Source of the DNA: Sycon ciliatum | Lineage: Eukaryota > Porifera > Calcarea > Leucosolenida > Sycettidae | Assembly: GCF_964019385.1 (NCBI RefSeq) | Contig: NC_088646.1 | Span: 7,650,162-7,714,161 of the forward strand | Reading direction: 5' to 3' | Length of the DNA stretch: 64,000 nt | Shown: positions 107 to 54,600 of the stretch, one piece after another | How the letters are laid out: the number at the start of each line of letters is the position of its first letter | Numbering within the stretch: position 1 is the stretch's first letter | Notes under the pieces: model-generated | What the model was told of the DNA's origin: nothing | Database searches by the model: none | What the model saw: the letters and a program-made list of their open reading frames with translations, nothing else | Translations under genes and position numbers: made by a program

Positions 107-2180
107 CTACTGAGTTGGGCAGTACTTGATGTGACGCTTCAAATCGCCACTTCTCCTAAACGCTCTGCCGTATGCGCAATGAAAGTCCTTCGGTGCCGGG
201 GGAGGAAGACGATGTTGATGAACCCGCCTGCGCCATTCCGGGCGATCTTGTGCGAGCCGATACCACTCGGACTCCGGAATATCCAGCGAGCGCAGATCAC
301 CGACAATCGTGTCTCGCCAACGCTTCTTTGGCCCATGCCGTGGTCTGGTTGCTTCGAGCTCACCAAACAACACTTGTTGAGGAATCCGGGCCGCGTCCAT
401 ACGGGCAACATGACCCAGCCAACGCAGACGGTACTCACACAGGAGAGCGCCAATGTCCTCAGGAAGACGCGCTCTCTGGGCTAGATCAGCAGTATTAAGA
501 TGACGAGAGTGCTGATCGCTCCTTGAGACTCCCAAGATGGAACGGACGCATGAGCGATGAAACAGATTCAGGCGATTCAACTGCCGGGCCTTCATGGGCC
601 AAGTCTCTGCTCCATAGAAGAGGGTAGGGAGGACAATGGCCTAGTAGACAAGACGCTTAGACTTAATGGATAGGCCGCTACACCCGAAGAATAGCTTTTG
701 GAGAGCGCCAAAAGCACGAGAGGCCTTGGCAAGACGGGAGGTGAGCTCCTTGTCCAGAGCACCGTCTGCACTCAGGACACTGCCAAGATAGGTAAAGCTG
801 TCCACAACCTCCACGCTTCCTCCATCCTGAAGATCAATGGAAGGTGGCGGGTCAGAGCAGTTCACCGCCATGGCCTTGGTCTTCTGGACGCTCCCAGTTA
901 GACCCCAACCCGAAGCACAGGACACAAACTCGTTTGTCATCGTCTGCAGGTGGCTCAAAGAGGTGGTGTAGAGAGCCGCATCATCAGCAAACTGGGACTC
1001 TGTGACGTCAGTGGAGGCCAGTCGAGACTTGGCGGTCCGATCCCCAACAAGCTTCCTGCCGACACGGTAGCGGACCCGTACACCCGGAACAGAAGACTGG
1101 CGATGCCACGAAGAGACCACTGCAGAGAAATACAGATTAAAGAGCGTAGGCGCCAGTGTGCAGCCCTGACGCAAGCCATTCCGGACGTTGATGTTGTCCG
1201 TGACGACGTTAGGGAGCCGAACACGCACCTCCATGCCTTCATGGAGCGACTGGACAAGGCCAAGCAGCTTCGGAGGAATGCCCAGATTGCGGAGCACAAG
1301 CCACAAAGCAGACCGCGGAATTGAATCATAGGCCTTGCGCAGATCGACGAAAAGCACATATAGCTCAGAATCATGCTCCACTGCCTTCTCCATCAGTTGT
1401 CTTGCGGTGAATACCATGTCACTGCAGACACGGCCCCTGCGGAATCCGCACTGGGAATCCGGCAGAACATCCTCTGCCACCGCCTGCAGGCGACCCTGAA
1501 GAACACGAGCAAAGACCTTGCCGACCACATCCAGGAGGCTGATGCCATTCCAGTTATCGCAGGACCGTAAGTCACCTTTCTTGGGGATAGGGACGATCTC
1601 TGCGTTTCGCCAGTCAGACACGGCAGAACCGCAGGTCCATACCTCATTGATCACATTGTGGACGCGCTCATGCAAGGACTCGCCACCAGCAAGAATCATC
1701 TCCGGGACAATTCCAGACTGTCCACCCGCAGTGCCTGGGTGTAGCTTCCTGATCGCCGATACCACTTCCTCAAAAGAGGGCGGGTCGTCAAGACTTTGCC
1801 TGATGCCAAGCACTGGCATGGATTCAATGACTTCCGCATCAAACACACTCTCAACATTAAGGACACGATCAAAGTGGCGATGCCAACAAGCTCCCAAACT
1901 CTCTGGACCGTCTGTCAAGTTGCCATTCTCATCCCGAACGCTGGATGTCACCACTGACTGTCGGCCAGTGTGCATTCCCCGCAACTTCTTGATACATTTC
2001 CAGCGGACAGAGCCGTCCCTCTGGGCGGCCTCAGCTTCATCCGTAATTGCGCTGATCCACGCCTCCTTAGCTAACCGAACAGCCTTGCCCACAGCTCGCT
2101 GGGCAGATCTCAAGGCCTTACGAGACGACGGCGTGCCACAAGAAACATAGTCTGCGTTAGCTTGTCGCTTGACGGCAATG
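107..2180 (-). mobile_element. 5'-truncated LINE (non-LTR retrotransposon), reverse transcriptase ORF with one in-frame stop
   Basis: Reading leftwards from a (CA)n tract, one frame encodes a non-LTR reverse transcriptase. Visible motifs are the PIPKKGD/NWNGISLL block, the catalytic FVDLRKAYDS, NGLRQGCTLAPTLFN, and the polymerase box QFADDAALY. A TAG at 641-643 interrupts the frame, and the same frame then continues through AIVLPTLFYGAETW and the C-terminal region typical of LINE ORF2 (RWLGHVARM). The protein ends in a GDLKRH zinc-knuckle-like motif in which the second cysteine is missing (HCAYGRAF). No endonuclease domain is present, so the copy is 5' truncated at about 2180, exactly where the microsatellite begins. 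The 3' side ends in a short TTTGACC tandem. It lies in the same orientation as the ZAK-like gene, inside its intron. Clade assignment (CR1, Jockey or RTE-like) was not attempted. Confidence 0.9.
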
Positions 2181-2181
2181 G

Positions 2182-2182
<1 letters not shown>

Positions 2183-2259
<77 letters not shown>
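2183..2259. repeat. (CA)n microsatellite
   Basis: About 38 CA units lie at the truncated 5' end of the LINE. The poly-Cys/Val and poly-His/Thr reading frames across it are shadows of the repeat. Confidence 0.97.
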
Positions 2260-2262
<3 letters not shown>

Positions 2263-2326
2263 CACTAATGAAGACATTGCCCACACATCAATCACAAACA
2301 TGCACCGCTGGAAACCAGGCGCCTAC

Positions 2327-9100
<6,774 letters not shown>

Positions 9101-11090: not shown

Positions 11091-12881
11091 TTACGCTGCA
11101 CCACTACCATTTACGCTGGCAGTTGAAGAGTCATCAGCAGGAGTAGACTCATCGTGGGTTGCTGGAGCGGCTTCAGTCTCTTCAGCCTCTGATGAGCGTG
11201 TCGGCGCACAACCACTGGCAGATGAAGGTGCAGGTTCCTCATTGGTTGCTGAAACTGCACACGCAGAAGCAGCTTTAGAAGCAGATTCAGAGCTGTTTGC
11301 TGTACCTGTTGCTGCACTAGTGTCAGGTGCAGCGGCCGAAGACGGAGTACCACCGACCCTCATCACCTTCATCACGCCCGTATTCTCTAGCTTAGTCATC
11401 AGCTCGCCCAGCCTCTCGGCTTCAGCTTCCTTCTCCTCTTCTGTCATTCCAGCCAATGGATCAACCTGGTCCTGAGCTTCTGGCCCTCCTGTCATGACAT
11501 TGACCCTGCTCTCTCTATACTCTTCCGTGTCAGAATCGTCAGAGTCGGACGAATAGTCAGCAGTTTGCTCTCCTTTTCCACCTCCCAGCATACCACGCTG
11601 CAGCAACAGTCCAGCAGCATTACCATATCCAGTGTACTTGACAAACCGGCCAGCATTCTCCTTGCAGAGTACAAACAGAAACTCGGCAACAGTGGCGGCC
11701 AGATTGGTGTGCGGTGACGTCATGAGTCGGACAAGGCGTGCTTTCAGACTGTTACCTTCGTCGGGCCGACTAACAACATTGCCTAGCGTTGGCAATACTT
11801 TCTGACGCCAGTACCGCCGAGCAACTGGACAAGCACGTGCACAGTTGGCAATGGCCGTGACAAGAGGGACAAGGTCATTGCCCGTCGCTGATGAGATGTT
11901 TGCCGAACACAGGCCGGTGGTTTCCTCGTCAAGCTGACGTAAGAGCTGCTCGGCAGCTGTTACATTACGATAATTATAGATCACGGTGTTACCCGTTCCA
12001 AACTGAGAATGGGTTTTGGGTAGGAACAAATCGTCGCAATTTGGAGGCATGTTGATAAGCATGTAGGTTACCTGTGAACGCAGTGGGTTGATATCTTTGG
12101 GCCCCATTAGGTGGGGAGAAGACAGCACAATGCGTGCCATCTTTACCAGCAGCATCACACTCTGAATCTCTTTTTCCGTGGGTTCCTTTGACACTTCCAT
12201 GCTGATGTTGAAAACACACTTCATAACCTCTGCTGCAAGGTCTCCGCACTGCTGTGAGAGCTCACCAATCGTGGCACAATCACCTTCATTCCCTGTTAGT
12301 CCCAACGCAGCTAGCACTCCACCACACAGTCTGTGCAGTCCATCGGCTTGCCGTATCGCGCTTCGCAGCGATTGGTTTACGGCTGACATCAGGAAGATCA
12401 GTCGTGCACTGTAGAAACGAATATCATACTCAGCATCTTTACTCGAGATTTGCTGAAGAAGGTGGGCCACAGCTCCTTCACATCCAGCAATATTGTCCGA
12501 GAATGAGTGGTGCTGGTAAGTCAAATTGCATAAACACTTGAGAGATTCGACAGCTGTGGCGTCCTCAACAGGAATATCACTGTCTGCACCGGTAAAGCGC
12601 ACTAAACGCAATGCACCCTTCTCTGTTAGGACATCCCGAAATCCAGCTTTCTGCCTCGTCAGAATACGCAAGGCGTTCAGTCCGTAGCGCTGACCATCAC
12701 GACAGACAATATCACTACCCAGATACTGAAAAACGTCAGAAACGAAATTAGTTACCACAGAATCAGTTTCCTCGAATTGGAATTTATCCTTGTTTTCCCC
12801 GACGTACGTTTGCAAAGCCTCGAGACTTAGGCTGGCATCACCAGATTTCAAAACGGAGGAATACGCCTCCATGGTGTGCAT
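11091..12881 (-). CDS. RIC8A-like: Ric-8 (synembryn), G-protein alpha-subunit chaperone and exchange factor
   Basis: A single uninterrupted exon encodes 596 residues, close to the 530-560 of animal Ric-8. The protein is an all-helical armadillo-like repeat fold. Recognisable blocks are LNALRILTRQK, CLCNLTYQHH, KCVFNIS, the conserved AEFLFVLCKENAGRFVKYTG and GYGNAAGLL region, then an acidic Ser/Thr stretch DSDDSDTEEYRE at about residues 440-455 that matches the casein-kinase-2 region of Ric-8A, and GMTEEEKEAEAERL. Ric-8 folds nascent G-alpha subunits and acts as a receptor-independent exchange factor in the cytosol. TAG lies directly upstream of the first ATG. A second ATG three codons later has the better context (CACCATGG), so either may be used. 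The Ser/Ala-rich tail (last 70 residues) is lineage-specific. The lack of introns is unusual for this family. Confidence 0.96.
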   Translation of the reverse strand: MHTMEAYSSVLKSGDASLSLEALQTYVGENKDKFQFEETDSVVTNFVSDVFQYLGSDIVCRDGQRYGLNALRILTRQKAGFRDVLTEKGALRLVRFTGADSDIPVEDATAVESLKCLCNLTYQHHSFSDNIAGCEGAVAHLLQQISSKDAEYDIRFYSARLIFLMSAVNQSLRSAIRQADGLHRLCGGVLAALGLTGNEGDCATIGELSQQCGDLAAEVMKCVFNISMEVSKEPTEKEIQSVMLLVKMARIVLSSPHLMGPKDINPLRSQVTYMLINMPPNCDDLFLPKTHSQFGTGNTVIYNYRNVTAAEQLLRQLDEETTGLCSANISSATGNDLVPLVTAIANCARACPVARRYWRQKVLPTLGNVVSRPDEGNSLKARLVRLMTSPHTNLAATVAEFLFVLCKENAGRFVKYTGYGNAAGLLLQRGMLGGGKGEQTADYSSDSDDSDTEEYRESRVNVMTGGPEAQDQVDPLAGMTEEEKEAEAERLGELMTKLENTGVMKVMRVGGTPSSAAAPDTSAATGTANSSESASKAASACAVSATNEEPAPSSASGCAPTRSSEAEETEAAPATHDESTPADDSSTASVNGSGAA

Positions 12882-24263: not shown

Positions 24264-24931
24264 TTGTGGCTAGATACATACGCTCGCAACCAGTTACCTG
24301 TTCTTGCTGAAGAACACAGACCAGTCATGCACCGCACACACACGCACTGGTAGATCTAGACGCACACCACGGTCCCGTGCCGATGTCTGTGCCTGCGTTA
24401 CCGATCTCTAGCTCTGCGTGCTGTACTGTTTGCAGCCTGGCCTGGCCGCTGAGGCTGAGATGGTGAGGTACTACTACAGTCACTGAGTCAGTACAGAAAA
24501 AAAGAAAAAAAACTACAGTACAGACAGTCTGAGTCACTCTCACACTTCACAGTCTCAGGTATGTATTGACCTGTTACACTGGTGATAGATACCTGGATAC
24601 ATAATCAGTCATCATGGTCATCACTGCAGCCAGGCATTAGCGCTGAAATACTCCTGTACAAAACTACCTTTTTGACTTTGAGGGCTCGCTGTGTGCATGG
24701 TGTGTGTACGTAGATCTACATGACAATACGTCGTCAGCGCTGTCGACGTGTCGTAGGATACAGTCTACAGACCGTACTAGTAGGCGTAGATCTACACAAT
24801 GCCAATGGTAGATCTACACTGATGATAGTCTTGACGTGAAGGGTCGACCGTAAGTAAATACTAAAATAGTACTACTACTAGTTGACGTCTTGTAAACTTT
24901 AAAAGTTTAAAAAAAGTAAGTATAATAGTTA
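24264..24931. other. Upstream region of the tropomyosin-like gene
   Basis: No gene recognised. The palindrome GTAGATCTAC recurs (24711, 24786, 24809), and related GTAGATCT sites occur at 24352 and 26488. No function is assigned. Confidence 0.4.
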
Positions 24932-25071
24932 CATGAAGTTGATTGTTCCAACTAGGAACACACGCTTCTTGCCGAACTTGACACTTGACTGACTCACGAC
25001 TGCCATCCGGAGCACACGAGGAGCACGTCGCACCTTCCACTCGGCAAACCTGCAAGAAAGCACCACTCCCT

Positions 25072-25117
25072 GCTCAATACACGGTGTTTCGGGGAATTCA
25101 CCCCTCATCAGTTGAGC
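25072..25117 (-). ncRNA. Hammerhead ribozyme, type I, intact core (copy 1)
   Basis: Minus strand, 5' to 3': stem I strand GCTCAA; core CTGATGA; stem II GGGG, loop TGAATT, CCCC; core GAAA; a short stem III from CACCGTG; then T (16.1) and A (17) as the cleavage site; then stem I partner TTGAGC. All invariant core bases are present and stem I pairs 6 of 6. Cleavage is predicted between 25078 and 25077 on the minus strand after a GUA triplet. The very short stem III is like hammerheads of Penelope elements and retrozymes, which often work as dimers. Confidence 0.88.
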
Positions 25118-25156
25118 TTGAGTAGGCTGAGGAAGATTGTGCCTGAAAAGCACCAC

Positions 25157-25164
25157 TTATATAC
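25157..25164 (-). promoter_or_regulatory. TATA box candidate upstream of the hammerhead
   Basis: TATATAAG on the minus strand, 40 bp before the first base of the ribozyme. A transcript starting about 30 bp downstream would include the whole motif. Confidence 0.4.
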
Positions 25165-25385
25165 TGCTCTCCAGGCCAAACCATCACCAGGGATACAAAC
25201 TTACAGAGACGCTTTGTTTCCAGCGCGACAAACACCTCGTGAAGCTCCAGGTAGCAGCGTGAGTCAGAGTCGCTCATGGAGTTGTGATAAGCAGACGTTG
25301 AGAGCTCCGGATGGCAGTCGTGAGTCAGTCAAGTGTCAAGTTCGGCAAGAAGCGTGTGTTCCTAGTTGGAACAATCAACTTCATG

Positions 25386-27530
25386 ACTATTACCGCCGAA
25401 GTCGCAACTTCTAAGTTCATAATAGTTACAGTTGTAGCAATTGCTAGTATATTAATTAGGGGGGGGGGGGTATCTCTTTGTTGCAATAAGTGTAATAGTG
25501 CTGTTGTTGTGACTGTTGTAGCCTAGTAGGGGAAATCAGGCCGATATGAGCCACACGTGGTGCTAGTCATTGGCGCATCCTGAATGTCGTGCTGTGGTTG
25601 TTTCTTTATTTTGTCACGTGTACCAGGTGTACGCAGTATTAGTCAGTGCTAAGTCAGTGTTATGTTTTGTCACGCGGTATACATGTACTAGTAGTCACAC
25701 AAAGAAGTTTAGGTAGATCGTCAACAATTCGTAAGTTGGTAAAAGTACAAGTCATGTACATGTACACTGTACATCAGAACAACAGATGGCTTGTGTCACG
25801 GCTCTACCTTCCAGGTATCGAGCTCTCTTGGATTTCTGCTGGAATTCACAACAGTGTGTACACTGTACATCTGTATGTCCATCGGTTGTCTATTGTTGTC
25901 GCACTACATTTCACGCTTGTTAGGTTTCTTCATACTGCACCTTTTTGTCATTGGGTCACGCATGTATCACTGCTTTATCACCTCTCCAGCTCATTGTTCT
26001 TGTTCCTTTGCTCTTGCCTGAGGTGTACCTGTAGTCTGTACATCATCTGAAGAGAAGGCACGAAAGTTTACTTGCGGGAAATGCTTTCGATATGTTGAAG
26101 AACCTGATGGCAGTGATGCTTCTACTTCGGAAGTACTATATTAAAAGTGTTATAGCATTTTTGTCTCCGAGGAAACATTAATTTTTATGAGAGGAGGCGT
26201 TGCAGTTTTGGCAGGTATTTATTACTAATTTTTTACTTATACTCCCTGATTCTCAATCTGACTGCACCAACTATACTACTACAGACTACAACTACAAGCG
26301 TAGACTGGCCAAGCGCTGAAGCCCTCACTACATAGTGAAATGCTGCAAGTCAGACAAGTACAGCTGAGCATGTGTGTGTCGTCGACGTCCAGCATCATGT
26401 CATGACTAGTAATAGTATCGGATCCAGTTACAATGGCAGCGGCTGTGGTATGCGCATGCAGTGCGCTGTCTGTGTAGCTCAGAAGAGTAGATCTACGCCT
26501 ACGGTCTGTGACTGTTTGGGTCCGAAGACTCCGGATCGAGTGGATTCCAAACACACCACCCGGCCGGACTGGTTTGCAAACGACAACAAAATACAGCTCA
26601 GCTGAGCTCGACCTCTTTACACGCTGGGGGTCCTGTCGACATGTACATAGTCATTGACATTGTATGTTGTTGGTCTGACAGCATGAAACAAGGTGGAGGA
26701 CACCGTATTCGGAAACAGTGACCTTTCAACAACCATCCACGGTTGGTAGAGCCCCTGTCCGTTGGGACCATCTGAACCGTCTGACCCTCTTATTTAGGGG
26801 AGGTTTTTTTATAGACTTCTCCTAACGTCAGTCGTGTATTCTGTGATCGCTCCTGGATGTCGTCCTGATAGTCATAAAAATAGTAGCTATTTCAACCTGG
26901 ATTGCTTTTCTTAAAATTAATCTTCTGTTCTTCCAACTTCTGCCCATGGCGTCCCTCTCTCAGCTCGTCAGCTGACAACAATTGCTGTCACCACCATGAC
27001 ACTGTCGTGAGAAGGTGCTCTCTGTAGACGAGGTTGGTGATGTCTCGACGCGGCCATGGGTAGGCCTTCAGGCTTCACCACGTCGGAACACCCCGGCTAC
27101 ACGTTGGTTACACGGACACGGACCACTGTCGGTGTCCTCCACCTTGTTTCATGCTGTCAAACCAACAACATGTGTGAACTAAAACAAGGTTTATCTAATA
27201 CCATAGTCATATTGTATCTGCAAAAAAATTGTAGATAAGATTTACCACGACGTAGACGTACGATCGAGTCGAGTAGAGACAGTCTGTGCAGGTATTTTAC
27301 TACTCCGGACCGGTCGACCCTGGTCTGTAGTCTAGTTCAGTACTAGCATAGGTAACGATTTCTTGTCAAGCTTTTGTGTTCAATCTTTTCAGTGTTCTAT
27401 TTATTTCCGAATTTGGGTTGTCTTTTTGCTATGGTTCTTACTTCATGGTTTCACGCTATTGCCAGTATTGGCGTTGTGAATAACCCGTTCTTAAAGTCTG
27501 CATACCTTCCGTAATTCTGTTCTTCATTTT
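25386..27530. other. Intergenic repeats, no recognised gene
   Basis: Contains a poly-G run (25459-25470), an ATTACCGCCGAAGTCGCAAC motif (25387) that recurs near 52920, and the 40-bp inverted pair described separately. Confidence 0.4.
26665..27170. repeat. Inverted repeat pair, 40-bp arms
   Basis: Arms 26665-26704 and 27131-27170 are inverted copies with one mismatch (TGTTGTTGG...GGACACC), 426 bp apart. There is no clear target duplication, so the element type is unknown. Confidence 0.8.
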
Positions 27531-33799: not shown

Positions 33800-34759
33800 C
33801 TACCAATCGAGCCATTCCTTCATATAGACACATGTTGAAGGCGACACGGCACTGCCTTCGCAGCAGTTGAACACCAGCGGGCAAGCAGCACACGGAGTGC
33901 ACATGAGACCGGTGGGCGCAAGCGTCGAGGAGCGCGCGCGGTACAGCACGACCGGCTTTCCGTCCATGCCGCTGGTCACCTCGCGCTCCACTTTGCCGTC
34001 GTAGATCAGCGCGCCGAGTAGCATCTCGATATGCTCAACAGTCAGCTTTACTTTACTGACGCCAAGCCGGTTTATAAACTCCCACACGTCACTAGAGTTT
34101 GTCAGCGCTGCACTACGCCGGGCGATTGGATCCAGATCGCCGACTGCAACACCACCAAACGCTGCTGCCGGCGCCAGCGTACTGGCTCTGCTCTGCAGAA
34201 ATTTCAGACACTGCTGCATTAGCACATCCACAAACTCTGACTCAAAGTCCTGATCAGTGAACCATGGTCCTCCTGTCACTGACTGATCTGGCTCCAAGTT
34301 GAAGAGCATGTAAACTTTCTTCTTTTGATTCCCGACACTCTTCAACTGCTTGATGATCTTCTTGCTCTCTAGCGTTTTCAGCACTTTCTTCAGCTGTGTT
34401 TCGTTCAGGCCACTCTGTTGCCTAATGTCTCGTGTCCAAATGCCCTTCGTCTGAGCCTGCTCAACAATCTGGTAAACTAGTTTCTCCTCATTGTCAGCAC
34501 CTTGCAGGCTGCCAAGCACCTCCGTGTTTTTCGTCCGGTAAAACAACACATCGCCCTGCTTCAACACTTCCAGTCTTCCAGTGGATAAAAGGCGATTGAT
34601 GGCCGTGGCCAGACGAGCAGCCTCCACATGCTGGGGCAATTCTCGACGTATAAGATCATGGCTGACCTCACCACTGCGCTGGCATAATTCCAAAATCCGA
34701 ACTTCCAAGTCCAACACCTCGGCCGCTTCTTGCTTTATAACAACCTCCGCTACAGCCAT
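33800..34759 (-). CDS. POLR3F: DNA-directed RNA polymerase III subunit RPC6 (RPC39/C34)
   Basis: An intronless 319-residue protein; family members have about 316. It is the winged-helix subunit of the RPC3/RPC6/RPC7 subcomplex, which opens promoters and contacts TFIIIB in the nucleus. The N-terminal winged helices include AINRLLSTGRLEVL and DNEEKLVYQIVEQA with KGIWTRDIRQQS. The highly conserved KKKVYMLFNLEPDQSVTGG, WFTDQDFESEFVDVL and QQCLKFLQSRA follow. Near the C-terminus, ALIYDGKVE precedes the cysteine cluster CTPCAACP...CC...CVYMKEWL, corresponding to the iron-sulphur site of this family. The reading starts at ATG 34759; the codon before it is GTG and is not used. Confidence 0.97.
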   Translation of the reverse strand: MAVAEVVIKQEAAEVLDLEVRILELCQRSGEVSHDLIRRELPQHVEAARLATAINRLLSTGRLEVLKQGDVLFYRTKNTEVLGSLQGADNEEKLVYQIVEQAQTKGIWTRDIRQQSGLNETQLKKVLKTLESKKIIKQLKSVGNQKKKVYMLFNLEPDQSVTGGPWFTDQDFESEFVDVLMQQCLKFLQSRASTLAPAAAFGGVAVGDLDPIARRSAALTNSSDVWEFINRLGVSKVKLTVEHIEMLLGALIYDGKVEREVTSGMDGKPVVLYRARSSTLAPTGLMCTPCAACPLVFNCCEGSAVSPSTCVYMKEWLDW

Positions 34760-35150
34760 CACTCCCTGTTACATCTTTCACGTCGATACCAAGGGACTAG
34801 AAGAAGGAGAACACGTAGTACAACTCAACTAAACTTCCAATGAATGTGTCTAAAAAATGGATTTGGCACTTTTTCGCATCTTGAGTTTTTCAAAAAAATA
34901 TAATTATACGATCACATGCACATGCACGAGATGTACGACGCGAAGGTAGACGTCATCGTCGTCATGTCACCCGACCACCACGACCACGGCCGGTACGGGC
35001 CGGGCCACGGCTAGCCGGCTAGGCTTGTCCACAAAATGTTTTCAATTATTTCTGAATTTTGGTTGGATTTTCGCACTTTGAATTTTTTTTGAATTTTGGC
35101 CTCATCAGGATTAAATTTTGGCCGTTTTTGGAGAACGACAGTGCTGTCAC

Positions 35151-36899: not shown

Positions 36900-38199
36900 G
36901 GTACCAGCCTGGCATGTTCTGAGCCGAGGAACCAGCCTGGCATGTTCTGAGCCGAGGAACCAGCCTGGCATGTTCTGAGCCGAGGAACCAGCCTGGCATG
37001 TTCTGAGCCGAGGAACCAGCCTGGCATGTTCTGAGCCGAGGAACCAGCCTGGCATGTTCTGAGCCGAGGAACCAGCCTGGCATGTTCTGAGCCGAGGAAC
37101 CAGCCTGGCATGTTCTGAGCCGAGGAACCAGCCTGGCATGTTCTGAGCCGAGGAACCAGCCTGGCATGTTCTGAGCCGAGGAACCAGCCTGGCATGTTCT
37201 GAGCCGAGGAACCAGCCTGGCATGTTCTGAGCCGAGGAACCAGCCTGGCATGTTCTGAGCCGAGGAACCAGCCTGGCATGTTCTGAGCCGAGGAACCAGC
37301 CTGGCATGTTCTGAGCCGAGGAACCAGCCTGGCATGTTCTGAGCCGAGGAACCAGCCTGGCATGTTCTGAGCCGAGGAACCAGCCTGGCATGTTCTGAGC
37401 CGAGGAACCAGCCTGGCATGTTCTGAGCCGAGGAACCAGCCTGGCATGTTCTGAGCCGAGGAACCAGCCTGGCATGTTCTGAGCCGAGGAACCAGCCTGG
37501 CATGTTCTGAGCCGAGGAACCAGCCTGGCATGTTCTGAGCCGAGGAACCAGCCTGGCATGTTCTGAGCCGAGGAACCAGCCTGGCATGTTCTGAGCCGAG
37601 GAACCAGCCTGGCATGTTCTGAGCCGAGGAACCAGCCTGGCATGTTCTGAGCCGAGGAACCAGCCTGGCATGTTCTGAGCCGAGGTACCAGCCTGGCATG
37701 TTCTGAGCCGAGGAACCAGCCTGGCATGTTCTGAGCCGAGGAACCAGCCTGGCATGTTCTGAGCCGAGGAACCAGCCTGGCATGTTCTGAGCCGAGGAAC
37801 CAGCCTGGCATGTTCTGAGCCGAGGAACCAGCCTGGCATGTTCTGAGCCGAGGAACCAGCCTGGCATGTTCTGAGCCGAGGAACCAGCCTGGCATGTTCT
37901 GAGCCGAGGTACCAGCCTGGCATGTTCTGAGCCGAGGAACCAGCCTGGCATGTTCTGAGCCGAGGAACCAGCCTGGCATGTTCTGAGCCGAGGTACCAGC
38001 CTGGCATGTTCTGAGCCGAGGTACCAGCCTGGCATGTTCTGAGCCGAGGAACCAGCCTGGCATGTTCTGAGCCGAGGAACCAGCCTGGCATGTTCTGAGC
38101 CGAGGTACCAGCCTGGCATGTTCTGAGCCGAGGTACCAGCCTGGCATGTTCTGAGCCGAGGTACCAGCATGGCATGTTCTGAGCCGAGGAACCAGCTTG
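36900..38199. repeat. 28-bp minisatellite, about 46 units
   Basis: The unit is ACCAGCCTGGCATGTTCTGA followed by GCCGAGGA. Units are almost identical. A GGTACC variant in place of GGAACC is concentrated in the right third. Because 28 is not a multiple of three and the minus-strand unit has no stop in any frame, all three minus frames stay open for more than 1.2 kb. These frames are treated as repeat artefacts, not genes. Confidence 0.97.
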
Positions 38200-38477
38200 G
38201 GTGAACGTCTTACAACGTTACCGGCCGCATGATCTGGTTTCATATACTGTACAATGTATATCTGTAGAGTATGATGTAGAGTCACGTGATGCTGCAGGCA
38301 GTTTACAAGGCCCAGTCCCATACCACTGACTGCACCATGTACCCAACTAATTGGTGTGATGGCCTCTTAGGTCATCATGGGTATTTTAACTACTATTTTA
38401 GCTTTTTAGTCTCGAATACTGTAGTCCTTAGGAGCCTGTTCTCTTGCGATAGCCTATGCCCAGGCCATGGTATAAAC

Positions 38478-45214: not shown

Positions 45215-45437
45215 ACCTTTATCGATGTTTGAGCTAAAGCTGATTCATTGATATCAGATTGAAGCATAAGAAACCTCATTCAGTTTTGCAGTCGCGTTTC
45301 AGCTGGTCTAAATTACGCGCAAACACAGCCAGAGCTGTTGGCCATTGGTCTAAATTATTAATTTTTTAAGTTGTGGTTGTCAGAACATTTTAGTCACCGT
45401 AGTAATCAGAGAATCTATGTCTTCATAATTACTCAAT

Positions 45438-45483
45438 CTGCGGACAGCATGCTGTTTCGTTCTTTTTGAACTCATCAGCGCAG
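45438..45483 (-). ncRNA. Hammerhead ribozyme, type I, intact core (copy 2)
   Basis: Minus strand: stem I CTGCG; core CTGATGA; stem II GTTC, loop AAAAA, GAAC; core GAAA; stem III as the self-complementary CAGCATGCTG; then T and C (cleavage triplet GUC); then stem I partner CGCAG. Every invariant base is present and all stems pair. Cleavage is predicted between 45443 and 45442 on the minus strand. It lies 0.6 kb downstream of the LIMP-2-like gene in antisense orientation. A decayed relative is at 5861-5910. Confidence 0.9.
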
Positions 45484-45857
45484 CACAGAGAAAATGAGGC
45501 CGAACCTGATAGCAATGAAAATAAAAATTTCCAATCAGGCCCGAACGTACCTTGCCAGAGTGCTCAAACTGACAAGTCAGTGAGCTCTGCATAACGCAAA
45601 CAGCTTCTTCATAATTATTTACTTTAAAAATGGGACCAGATTCTTCTATTTGTACTATTTGTCTTCCTCAGTGTCAGGTTGGTTAGTGTGGCTGTGGTGG
45701 CTAAGCAGCCGATAAGTTTAGGACTCGCATATGGATCATCAATTATGGATTGTTGAGCTTGCTGGTACAACTTTGATTAGCCATTGTTTCTACATGTAGG
45801 TGGTGGGTGCATAGCACTTTTTCCAGTAAGTATTGCCTTACTAACCGATGATGTTAA

Positions 45858-51647: not shown

Positions 51648-54600
51648 CACACGCGTTAACACCACGCCAAAGCGAGTCATTGCTCTGCACTGGTTGGCAG
51701 ATCTGCTGTCCAACAAAGGCCATAGGCCGGGGAAACAGGGTAAACCCCATCGCATCCCAATCTTATACTGTTTGCTCACGGCAAGACGCAAACCCACTGG
51801 GGTGGCTCTCCGCACTAGCTAGACAACACAGTCAATGGCATGACCTCTGTAGTAACTTACCGCAAGCAATGTCTACATATGCAGCGAGGTCACAATCCAG
51901 GTCAGCAGATGGTAGTGGCAGCTGTACATAGAGATAGGATAGCACTATGTTTTGAAAACAACACCAGCTATGTACATGTAGAGCGCCGTGATGGTCTTAG
52001 AATTAGGCCGGGCAGAGTGCTGATCCAGTCAGATAGAATTAGGCCAGGGCAGAGTGCTGATCCAGTCAGATAGAATTAGGCCAGGGCAGAGTGCTGATCC
52101 AGTCAGATAGAATTAGGCCAGGGCAGAGTGCTGATCCAGTCAGATAGAATTAGGCCAGGGCAGAGTGCTGATCCAGTCAGATAGAATTAGGCCAGGGCAG
52201 AGTGCTGATCCAGTCAGATAGGCCAGGGCAGAGTGCTGATCCAGTCAGATAGAATGTTGATGTGCTCACTACTCTTCCTTTCAGTACAGTAGAGCATTGG
52301 TAGTGTTCCCGCACACCAGTATAACTAGAGCATTGGTAGTGTTCCGCACACCAGTATACGAAAAAATTGCTCTTCTAAATTAGGCAGGTGGTGTTTCCAC
52401 ACAGACCTGATCGTGTGCCAAGCAACTGTCTGGGGACTGATACGACACCGAGTCTCTACAGTCATTAGAACCTTGCACGTCGTCTTTGACTGTGAGGGAG
52501 CCAAGGACAGTGGCACGTCCATCAAGGAAACCAGAGAGCTGCCAGCTCAGCCCCCCCCCCTCCCCCTCTTCCCTGCTATGCTTGCTCTTTTTTTAAACCT
52601 AACTTAGGCCATCATATGAACTCATTTTCCTCAGCTAGCTAAGCTGGTGATCAGCCACGCGATACGTGTAAACGCGGATGCTGCCAGCCCTCTGCCCTCT
52701 GCACTCTGCACTGCGGCCACAGCACCTACACTGTACAACTCTTGGGTTGGTCACATGATCAGTCATGTGACATGCCAACATAGCCGACACATACTACACA
52801 CAGACATGAAATAAAACACGACGGAACCTGGTTACGGCAAACGCAACGTATTTTGCATAGCTTCTGGAAGTAAGGTGGGTATTCCCAACGTCGGAGGTCA
52901 CCCTACCACTTTCTTCACCAATTACCGCCGATGTCGCAACATCTTAGTTCGTTCTGAAAGTAAAGGGCAAGCTAATTAATACAACTGTTTTGAAGGAAAG
53001 TGTTGTCACAGGGCTACGTACATCCTTGAGTGATTTCTCATACTCTGCTGGCCATTCCTTCATGAGCGACTCAATATCTGGCATGGGTCTAGGGCACAAA
53101 AAGAGGAGGACAGAACACCATCGGGCATGTTAGAGTTAATAGATTTCTGTTGGTACGCTCGATCATATTTGAGTCCGACCAAGGAAGGTGGCTCCTCCGA
53201 ATATTAGAGCGCGTGTTTCCTGCTGCCTGACTGGCACTTGGCTGGACTCACGGCTCACTCAGTCCGTCGGCAGGAAGCACACGCTGCAACATTCGGAGCA
53301 GCTGCCTTCGTCAGATACTACAGGACTGCCGGGTGCCGAAGAACGGGCAGGCTAAGATTTCACCAAGCACAGCATGCCGATATTGTATACATGGCGACTC
53401 AACTATGCATAGCCTGTGGTGTATGAAAATAGGAATGGTTTGGGCTACGAGCCCCTCCCCTGTGGGTTAAGGTACCCTCTCATTCTGCCCGCTCACACGT
53501 GTATAATTGCTCTACAGTCCCGAGTGACAATTCCCAAGTGTTTCTCACCCGGTGTAGTTGACTGTAGGAGGTGGTTTGTGACGATGAAGATCACTGTACA
53601 GCACACAAAAACAAAGGTAACTATTAGTGAGCATATATCAGTTTCTAACGTGCAGTGTTGGTCGATTGTCATCACTCTGCCATTCCATCAATTGTCCTAC
53701 ACTGCAAGCTGGTTTCCGTCACAATGTCCTACCACCAAGTGTCTTGCAACGAGTGTGATAAATGAGAGGATAAAACACGCCACCCTGGTACATACGTGAT
53801 GTTCTCTATCCAGTTGTCAATTGCCTTGGTGTTCTTGCTGCCCTCCGGTATACTGTGTACGGTCTTTGAAACACACGCGACACACAGGCGACACACAAAC
53901 AAGCAAACAGATCGCACAACTCAGACCAGTGGTGTGCGCTACAACCGGCGGCAGATGAGATAATGTAAATAGCAAGCAGTACCAATGCATCATGCCGCAC
54001 TCGTACTTCACCGAGTACACCCACATCGGCAGTATCTTTAAGCCGGCTGGGATGATGATGGCCTGATCTAACTCACCACGTGCTTTGCTTGCTTCTCCTT
54101 TGTCATTCTGCGTAGCTGGAGGTCCATGACTGCAGTGAGAATGATTCACAACATGATGGGTACTGGAGTAAGCTTGTGTTAGTCCAGGTGCATGCGTCTG
54201 TCCTATCTGTCTCTTCCAGCAATAGGGAATGTTCATGTCCAAGAATTCACTCGTGTAGGCCATCGTTCACAACATTCGATTCGACCCACTACCAACTCAG
54301 AGAAGTATGCTAGCCATGCTAGGACTGCTGGGAAGCATAGTCACTATACCAACGGAGGAAGTACAGAGCTGCTGCAGGTGTAATGGTGCTATTTTTGTCT
54401 GACTGCACCAGGATGACCCCGTATTCATTTGAGACTTGTGGCACGTGATCGAGATCCATTCTCACTTGGATGCACAATCATCCCTAATGCGGGACTGTCA
54501 CACATGCAGTGTTGTTGTAAATACCAAGCACTCATGCAGCAAAACACCAACTTTAGTAGATAGTCGCAAGGGATGGGAGTGCTGTGGGAGTGCTGTGGGG

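Follow-up and report, generated by a model that had tools for sequence, protein, structure and literature searches.

The insertion and its ribozyme

The stretch of Sycon ciliatum DNA that was analysed as a whole (contig NC_088646.1; 64 kb, hereafter the window) holds at positions 24934-25418 an insertion of 485 bp that carries a hammerhead ribozyme and is flanked by a 12-bp target duplication. The insertion is one copy of a non-coding repeat family, here called family A, with a unit of about 476 nt. The original prediction had described an intergenic ribozyme; the motif is present, but it is not isolated, as it sits in this two-armed insertion of a high-copy repeat family. The insertion is composed as follows, RNA positions being counted from the predicted cut (position 1 is window position 25077):

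24922..24933, no strand: target-site duplication, left copy, ATAATAGTTACA
24934..25303, minus strand: left arm, outer end at RNA position 144 (proximal start site, without tail)
25072..25117, minus strand: type I hammerhead, predicted cut 25078/25077
25156..25163, minus strand: TATATAAG box at unit position 391-398, a possible promoter, found by eye
25304..25418, plus strand: right arm, head to head with the left arm, outer end at RNA position 179 (distal site, tail of about 36 nt)
25398..25411, plus strand: tail hairpin GAAGU-CGCA-ACUUC, stem 25398-25402 / 25407-25411
25419..25430, no strand: target-site duplication, right copy, ATAATAGTTACA

The proximal end was put at 142 by automatic mapping and at 144 by direct count, and the inner join was placed within a few bases of 25304. 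Two inverted repeats of 82 bp that are 100% identical (24932-25013 and 25304-25385) enclose the ribozyme and are parts of the two outward-facing arms. The TATATAAG box lies 38 nt upstream of the ribozyme.

Read base by base from 25117 to 25072, the minus strand is GCTCAA-CTGATGA-GGGG-TGAATT-CCCC-GAA-ACA-CCG-TGT-A-TTGAGC. In this sequence stem I measures 6 bp; stem II has 4 bp and a loop of 6 nt, and stem III has 3 bp (the A15.1-U16.1 pair included) and a loop of 3 nt. A GUA triplet predicts cleavage between 25078 and 25077. With its invariant core, three helices and open stem I the motif is a type I hammerhead. A strict structural search (stem I of at least 5 bp, stem II of at least 4, stem III of at least 3, and H17) found hammerheads at two sites of the window, 25111 (-) and 45478 (-), whereas 300 windows simulated by a first-order Markov model contained none. 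The claims that the core is intact and that the combination is unlikely by chance were thus both borne out, and the motif at 25072-25117 is confirmed as real.

The covariance models were less favourable. A Rfam scan of the whole window returned no family at gathering score. In a 66-nt search Hammerhead_1 (RF00163) aligned end to end with 25072-25117 at 20.5 bits (E = 0.0034), below its gathering score of 34; a longer search, of 701 nt and with E up to 10, listed 3 matches, none of which was Hammerhead_1. The original prediction had itself named a score below threshold as its refutation, and formally that is what was found: the motif is above chance, yet under the curated threshold. We do not count this as a refutation, because the genome holds 3,413 exact copies of the 28-nt ribozyme core (against 0 of the reversed control), and the core has a constant place within a mobile unit.

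The imposed hammerhead fold has an energy of -10.8 kcal/mol, against -12.1 for the minimum-energy fold (a gap of 1.3 kcal/mol); the stability of the 46-mer exceeds that of its shuffles only mildly (z = -1.59). Stem III (ACACCGUGU) is nearly self-complementary and is predicted to pair with a second copy (duplex of -7.4 kcal/mol), which makes cleavage as a dimer a reasonable idea; even with a stem III of 3 bp the monomer may be active as well. Judged from its structure and place, the ribozyme is part of a mobile repeat, with cleavage as a prediction.

Family A in the genome

A search of the assembly DNA (538 Mb) yielded 236 family A matches from the best 40 of 2,192 candidates, many of them in tandem at about 476 bp. 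The reference was one real unit, from locus L010, rather than a consensus. The exact core is also kept in a diverged relative at L010 3400-3773. The first 100 core places listed, all on C1, form 62 clusters, of which 40 hold a single core and 22 several; 15 of these 22 contain both orientations. Adjacent cores in this sample stand in the same orientation (23 cases, spaced 476-482 bp in 22 of them and 442 bp in one) or head to head (15), and never tail to tail. Most sampled inserts consist of two outward-facing arms joined head to head.

The circular unit has longest open frames of 96 codons (sense) and 118 codons (antisense), for which Pfam gives no match up to E = 1; the reverse transcriptase or GIY-YIG open reading frame (ORF) of an autonomous Penelope-like element (PLE) is absent from it. 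Family A thus comprises non-coding, dispersed tandem units with a type I hammerhead and target-site duplications but without long terminal repeats (LTRs), as do the metazoan non-LTR retrozymes.

Outer ends and target duplications

The ends were mapped in 32 loci (the window, L007, L009-L028 and L089-L098). These comprise 26 two-armed rows in which both outer ends were read, two unresolved cases (L007 and L098) and four one-armed inserts, three with the proximal end (L021, L022 and L026) and one with the distal end (L096). L017 and L018 share their flanks, so that the 26 rows represent 25 distinct two-armed inserts. The two copies concerned (L017 1019-2050 and L018 1044-2093) lie about 25 kb apart and have flanks, target duplication and outer ends in common, with different inner joins and arm lengths; they arose either by duplication followed by rearrangement or by repeated insertion.

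In 24 of the 25 distinct inserts one outer end falls at 138-146 and the other at 170-185. The sole exception is L023 (181/111), and none of the 25 has two equal outer ends. Free choice of ends would give at most half mixed inserts, from which the probability of at least 24 mixed inserts in 25 is 8e-7 at most. By eye, the same two ends also delimit a miniature insert of 48 bp in L034, which has a duplication of 12 bp. Target duplications of 9-14 bp (median 12, 72% AT) were determined for 19 of the 25, the other six being left out on account of simple repeats or misplacement by the finder; as longest exact matches, they may hold one or more element bases. Near gaps the end positions are uncertain by 2-3 nt. 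In L016, L025, L091 and L097 the duplication finder had misplaced the automatic ends, which were read by hand, and L024 has, by eye, a deletion in the tail. Taken together, the hallmarks of PLE-type integration (two internal start sites 30-40 nt apart, a tail at one end, head-to-head arms and a short duplication) are found in 24 of the 25 inserts.

Template and inner joins

Each of the 25 inserts has one or more arms that extend across the cut site, and 41 of the 50 arms are longer than 185 nt; the templates of arms that run across the cut site must have been multimeric or circular. In a test of alleles, which rests on 6 informative columns only, all 65 comparisons of one arm with the other at the same locus agreed, against 0.894 expected between loci. 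Moreover, rare alleles in one arm recur in the other in four of four cases. Differences amount to 5.6 per kb within an arm, 6.5 between the arms of a locus and 11.7 between loci. This agreement, together with the lower divergence within loci, suggests that both arms of an insert were most likely copied from one RNA source.

The inner ends of paired arms are 6-233 nt apart on the 476-nt circle, and only one of 26 pairs lies within 10 nt, against 1.15 expected at random. Twenty of the 26 inner joins could be read exactly: nine share 1-3 bases, two are blunt and nine carry between 1 and 15 added or changed bases, in part mere differences from the reference unit. Such unrelated inner ends and types of join fit two separate cDNAs joined end to end, and not priming by fold-back.

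Penelope-like elements with the same ends

GIY-YIG matches are many in this genome (the best 150 of 944 candidates were scored). One element, PLE-1, has an ORF of 902 aa, a minimal hammerhead and tandem units of 2,935 bp, and its protein gives weak RVT_1 and GIY-YIG matches in the order of PLEs. Its ribozyme core has 129 genome copies (reversed control 0). Among the 100 of these that were listed, 25 neighbours stand head to head, 19 in the same orientation and none tail to tail. All three head-to-head arrays that were read at both ends have one proximal end without a tail and one end 35-37 nt further, and this extra stretch is the known PLE tail. The arrays, with duplications read by eye, are:

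C1, 97.53 Mb: PLE-1 array, duplication ATTCGATTTTG
C7, 1.37 Mb: PLE-1 array, duplication ATGTACAGTTAT
C14, 5.23 Mb: PLE-1 array, duplication TACTTCAAAAGT

A further region (G000, C1:78524528-78539334) holds six tandem PLE-1 matches spaced exactly 2,935 bp apart, five of which lie in an uninterrupted frame of 902 aa. Such intact frames suggest recent activity. In four other PLE start regions the ribozyme precedes the ORF (L109 and L110), is of the L110 type but on the opposite strand (L111, by eye), or was not seen, by eye, in the 451 bp of the region (L108).

Hairpins precede the start sites. In PLE-1 the hairpin GGAGCG-AGUC-CGCUCC lies about 10 nt before the proximal site, and in family A the hairpin UGUUCC-UAGUU-GGAACA lies about 9 nt before the family's own proximal site in both a 65-nt and a 100-nt fold; in the 65-nt fold GAAGU-CGCA-ACUUC precedes the distal site. 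L109 has a different, yet paired hairpin at the matching place, as has L110 by eye. Folding of three further stretches gave z = -2.08, 0.81 and -1.48 relative to shuffles, so that energy alone separates one of the three. Family A has a diverged subfamily whose tail occurs in 38 exact copies (none in the reversed control); there the tail hairpin reads GAUGU-CGCA-ACAUC, a compensatory change. The window has one such tail:

52921..52952, plus strand: tail of the diverged family A subfamily (GAUGU-CGCA-ACAUC), apparently the end of a short truncated insert

By eye, this tail lies between the imperfect direct repeats TTCTGGAAGTAAGG and TTCTGAAAGTAAAGG. We considered it as a separate PLE and rejected this, six of its 38 exact relatives being a diverged subfamily of the family A retrozyme. 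The ORF of PLE-1 starts between its two start sites, and those of L109 and L110 likewise start past the hairpin. A frame of 80 codons that opens at the ATG of the family A ribozyme was tried as the start of a PLE ORF; as the sampled PLE ORFs start elsewhere and the frame has no Pfam match, it is treated as a chance occurrence.

Proposed mechanism and alternative explanations

We regard it as probable that family A is a metazoan non-LTR retrozyme, a ribozyme-bearing non-coding retroelement that was integrated by PLE machinery; for the latter part, the matching end rules provide strong support. Transcription of the unit may start from the TATATAAG box. The RNA would exist as multimers or circles, the hammerhead separating the units before they are rejoined; that the template runs over the cut site follows from the structure of the inserts. 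A PLE protein, with reverse transcriptase and GIY-YIG endonuclease, would then make a staggered break in AT-rich DNA, of about 12 nt as read from the duplications. Both 3' ends would prime reverse transcription on RNA from a single source, at the observed positions of about 144 and 180. The two resulting cDNAs, of variable length and some of them several units long, would be joined mid-way, which leaves the outward-facing arms seen in the inserts.

The pairing of ends may reflect a property of PLEs in general. We incline, with some reservation, to the idea that the two strands of one break prime at different adjacent sites, proximal and distal, on RNA from one source, as if through a protein dimer with one active site each, and that this machinery was taken over by a non-coding ribozyme RNA. 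If so, the head-to-head inserts of PLEs are two joined first-strand cDNAs and not products of fold-back.

One alternative for the second arm is hairpin self-priming, in which the second arm is primed by the first: a single cDNA, or else an antisense RNA, would fold back on itself and be extended into an inverted repeat, as has been proposed for the Penelope elements of rotifers. The paper on Adineta (PMC3846280) argues for this on an antisense template, and the neighbours of opposite orientation in our sample are all head to head (15/15), which agrees with it. Nearly equal break positions in the two arms are then predicted, whereas the inner ends are spread as at random, and both outer ends are start sites beside target DNA with duplications. 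The sharing of alleles between the arms and the unrelated inner ends make self-priming very improbable. Movement of the same element by a LINE-type (long interspersed nuclear element) non-LTR retrotransposon instead of a PLE appears quite improbable as well. LINEs and PLEs are both mentioned as possible movers by the authors of the retrozyme study (PMC7229834), and the window itself contains a reverse transcriptase fragment (641-2284) that is LINE-type by eye; but the paired internal start sites, the tail and the head-to-head tandem arms are common to family A and the PLE-1 of this genome, and no poly-A was seen at the printed family A ends, the LINE families of the genome not having been searched for such ends.

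Two explanations dispense with the RNA step or with the ribozyme. Satellite DNA that grew by unequal crossing-over would account for the near-constant length of the tandem units. What was sampled, however, are short arrays scattered over different sites, and most of these have a target duplication of their own and show the fixed start sites; we hold this origin to be extremely improbable. For a DNA transposon or miniature inverted-repeat transposable element (MITE) with a ribozyme-like motif by chance, the 82-bp perfect inverted repeats and the duplication of the window copy could be adduced. Constant terminal inverted repeats and a duplication of fixed length are, however, absent from family A: the length of the inverted repeat varies by copy, arms hold up to several tandem units, 4 of the 32 loci are one-armed, the two ends differ by about 36 nt and the duplications range over 9-14 bp. 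This explanation can practically be set aside. A different matter is whether the hammerhead is a relic, carried along by an element that still moves while its ribozyme no longer cuts. The Rfam score below the cut-off, the inserts copied across the cut site and the observation that the ribozyme of the anole PLE is dispensable for insertion in vitro (PMC11167929) speak for it; the exactly conserved core, also in the diverged relative, speaks against it, although recent shared ancestry alone could account for that conservation. We consider a relic unlikely.

Several observations weigh against insertion by PLE machinery under the proposed pairing rule. The loci come from the best 40 of 2,192 candidates for a query that itself contained both arms; young copies with two arms are thus over-represented, although the choice of end positions should be unaffected. 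A slight excess of inner ends at positions 1-10 (4 of 52, against 1.1 expected) may point to cleavage of some templates at the ribozyme, with copying running off there, and covariation was not found within the family A hammerhead itself. The stability of the family A hairpins does not clearly exceed that of shuffled sequence (z = -1.03 and -0.53). In the longer, 100-nt fold only the first hairpin remains and that of the tail is lost; nor is the pairing of the tail hairpin kept in relatives at L017 2950 and L018 2993. On the side of the PLEs, only three arrays were read at both ends, with exact ends and duplications by eye, and the matches of the PLE-1 protein are at or below the Pfam cut-offs (RVT_1 24.0 bits against 29.6, GIY-YIG 22.5 against 22.6; another search gave 26.3 bits for GIY-YIG). 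Nucleotide similarity of family A to PLE-1 or the four start regions L108-L111 is not beyond chance (best E 5), so that none of these is singled out as the helper PLE. In addition, Frangieh et al. saw in vitro no difference in start site between the top and the bottom strand.

A second ribozyme family and other features of the window

The second hammerhead of the window belongs to another repeat, family B:

45427..45604, minus strand: single copy of family B, 228-nt unit
45438..45483, minus strand: second hammerhead, Rfam Hammerhead_HH9 24.6 bits (cut-off 52)

Units of family B measure 228 or 226 nt and show paired changes in stem II (GTTC/GAAC and GTCC/GGAC). A genome search gave 123 matches from the best 40 of 888 candidates, in tandem arrays. 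In 18 loci the arrays have a single orientation, except for one head-to-head join in L067. The outer 3' ends lie about 13-14 nt past the cut where they were read, and several duplications of 9-11 bp were noted by eye. The 144/180 end rule was not seen in these 18 loci, and hence the retrozymes of this genome do not all enter alike. A decayed copy at 5859-5935 (-) is 71% alike and, by eye, its core is no longer intact. Locus L069, with two hammerheads 3.9 kb apart, was considered as a PLE and rejected: it looks like a DIRS-type element with a family B copy (type by eye, no Pfam match). At L069 1836 (-) and 5728 (-) the family B hammerhead lies inside this larger DIRS-like repeat, for which 33 places are listed at 30.6 bits. 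The five that were inspected (L069 twice, L071, L072 and L073) are one sequence, as if the ribozyme had been captured and then multiplied.

Elsewhere in the window, animal-type gene matches were found for Ric8, Rpc34, CD36 and tropomyosin. Ric8 (11091-12881 (-), 596 aa) and Rpc34 (33800-34762 (-), 320 aa) are each nearly complete in one uninterrupted ORF, which is unusual for an animal; they are either intronless genes or retrocopies. The fragment at 641-2284 (-) matches Pfam RVT_1. A minisatellite at 36903-38200 (28 bp, 46.4 copies, 99% matches) contains three overlapping minus-strand open frames of up to 533 aa, and the Pfam matches over it are likely artefacts.

Comparison with known systems

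Retrozymes and the tails of PLEs are already known, and the role of PLEs for retrozymes has, in the literature examined, so far only been proposed. The proposal that PLEs move the metazoan retrozymes (PMC7229834, PMC7761336) was made on the grounds that both carry hammerheads, occur in tandem and coexist. Titles and abstract beginnings from our literature searches named no paired PLE-type ends for a retrozyme, although an earlier description is possible. In the genome of S. ciliatum the inserts of a retrozyme and of a PLE obey the same unusual end rule, and this makes the proposal testable with purified protein. The link to PLEs and retrozymes in the original prediction is backed by the structure of the insertions. 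With thousands of ribozyme copies, and short inserts that display both outer ends and the inner join, the data also bear on the origin of the inverted repeats and optional tails of PLEs.

Lunse et al. (2017) are said to have described small PLE hammerheads that cleave as dimers; to go by the title alone, these share with family A a short, nearly self-complementary stem III. The LTR retrozymes of plants (PMC4918200; features after PMC7229834 and PMC7761336) are, like family A, non-autonomous ribozyme elements thought to pass through circles, but they differ from it in having a type III hammerhead, LTRs, a primer binding site and 4-bp duplications.

The metazoan non-LTR retrozymes (Cervera and de la Pena 2020, PMC7229834) are closer. 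Like family A they are non-coding tandem type I hammerhead repeats in many copies, with target duplications, without LTRs and in coexistence with PLEs. Family B, with its 228-nt units in arrays of one orientation, fits them closely. The family A unit of about 476 nt compares with their repeats of 150-450 bp and RNAs of about 170-400 nt, and family A is mostly two-armed with two fixed outer ends, which the parts of PMC7229834 consulted do not describe.

Family A also resembles the GIY-YIG PLEs (PMC11167929, PMC3846280), which share with it the tandem or head-to-head arrangement, an optional tail of 30-40 bp, short duplications and AT-rich targets; the minimal hammerhead is also common to both (PMC11167929). 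Family A differs from them in that it has no reverse transcriptase ORF and no detectable sequence in common with the PLEs sampled. In Adineta the pseudo-LTRs (pLTRs) described are inverted and one of them bears a 31-bp tail; a duplication of 9 bp is reported too, and the authors explain the structure through self-priming (PMC3846280). The purified PLE of the anole cuts and extends both strands in vitro, and its two adjacent internal starts explain the genomic tail of 30-40 bp (PMC11167929).
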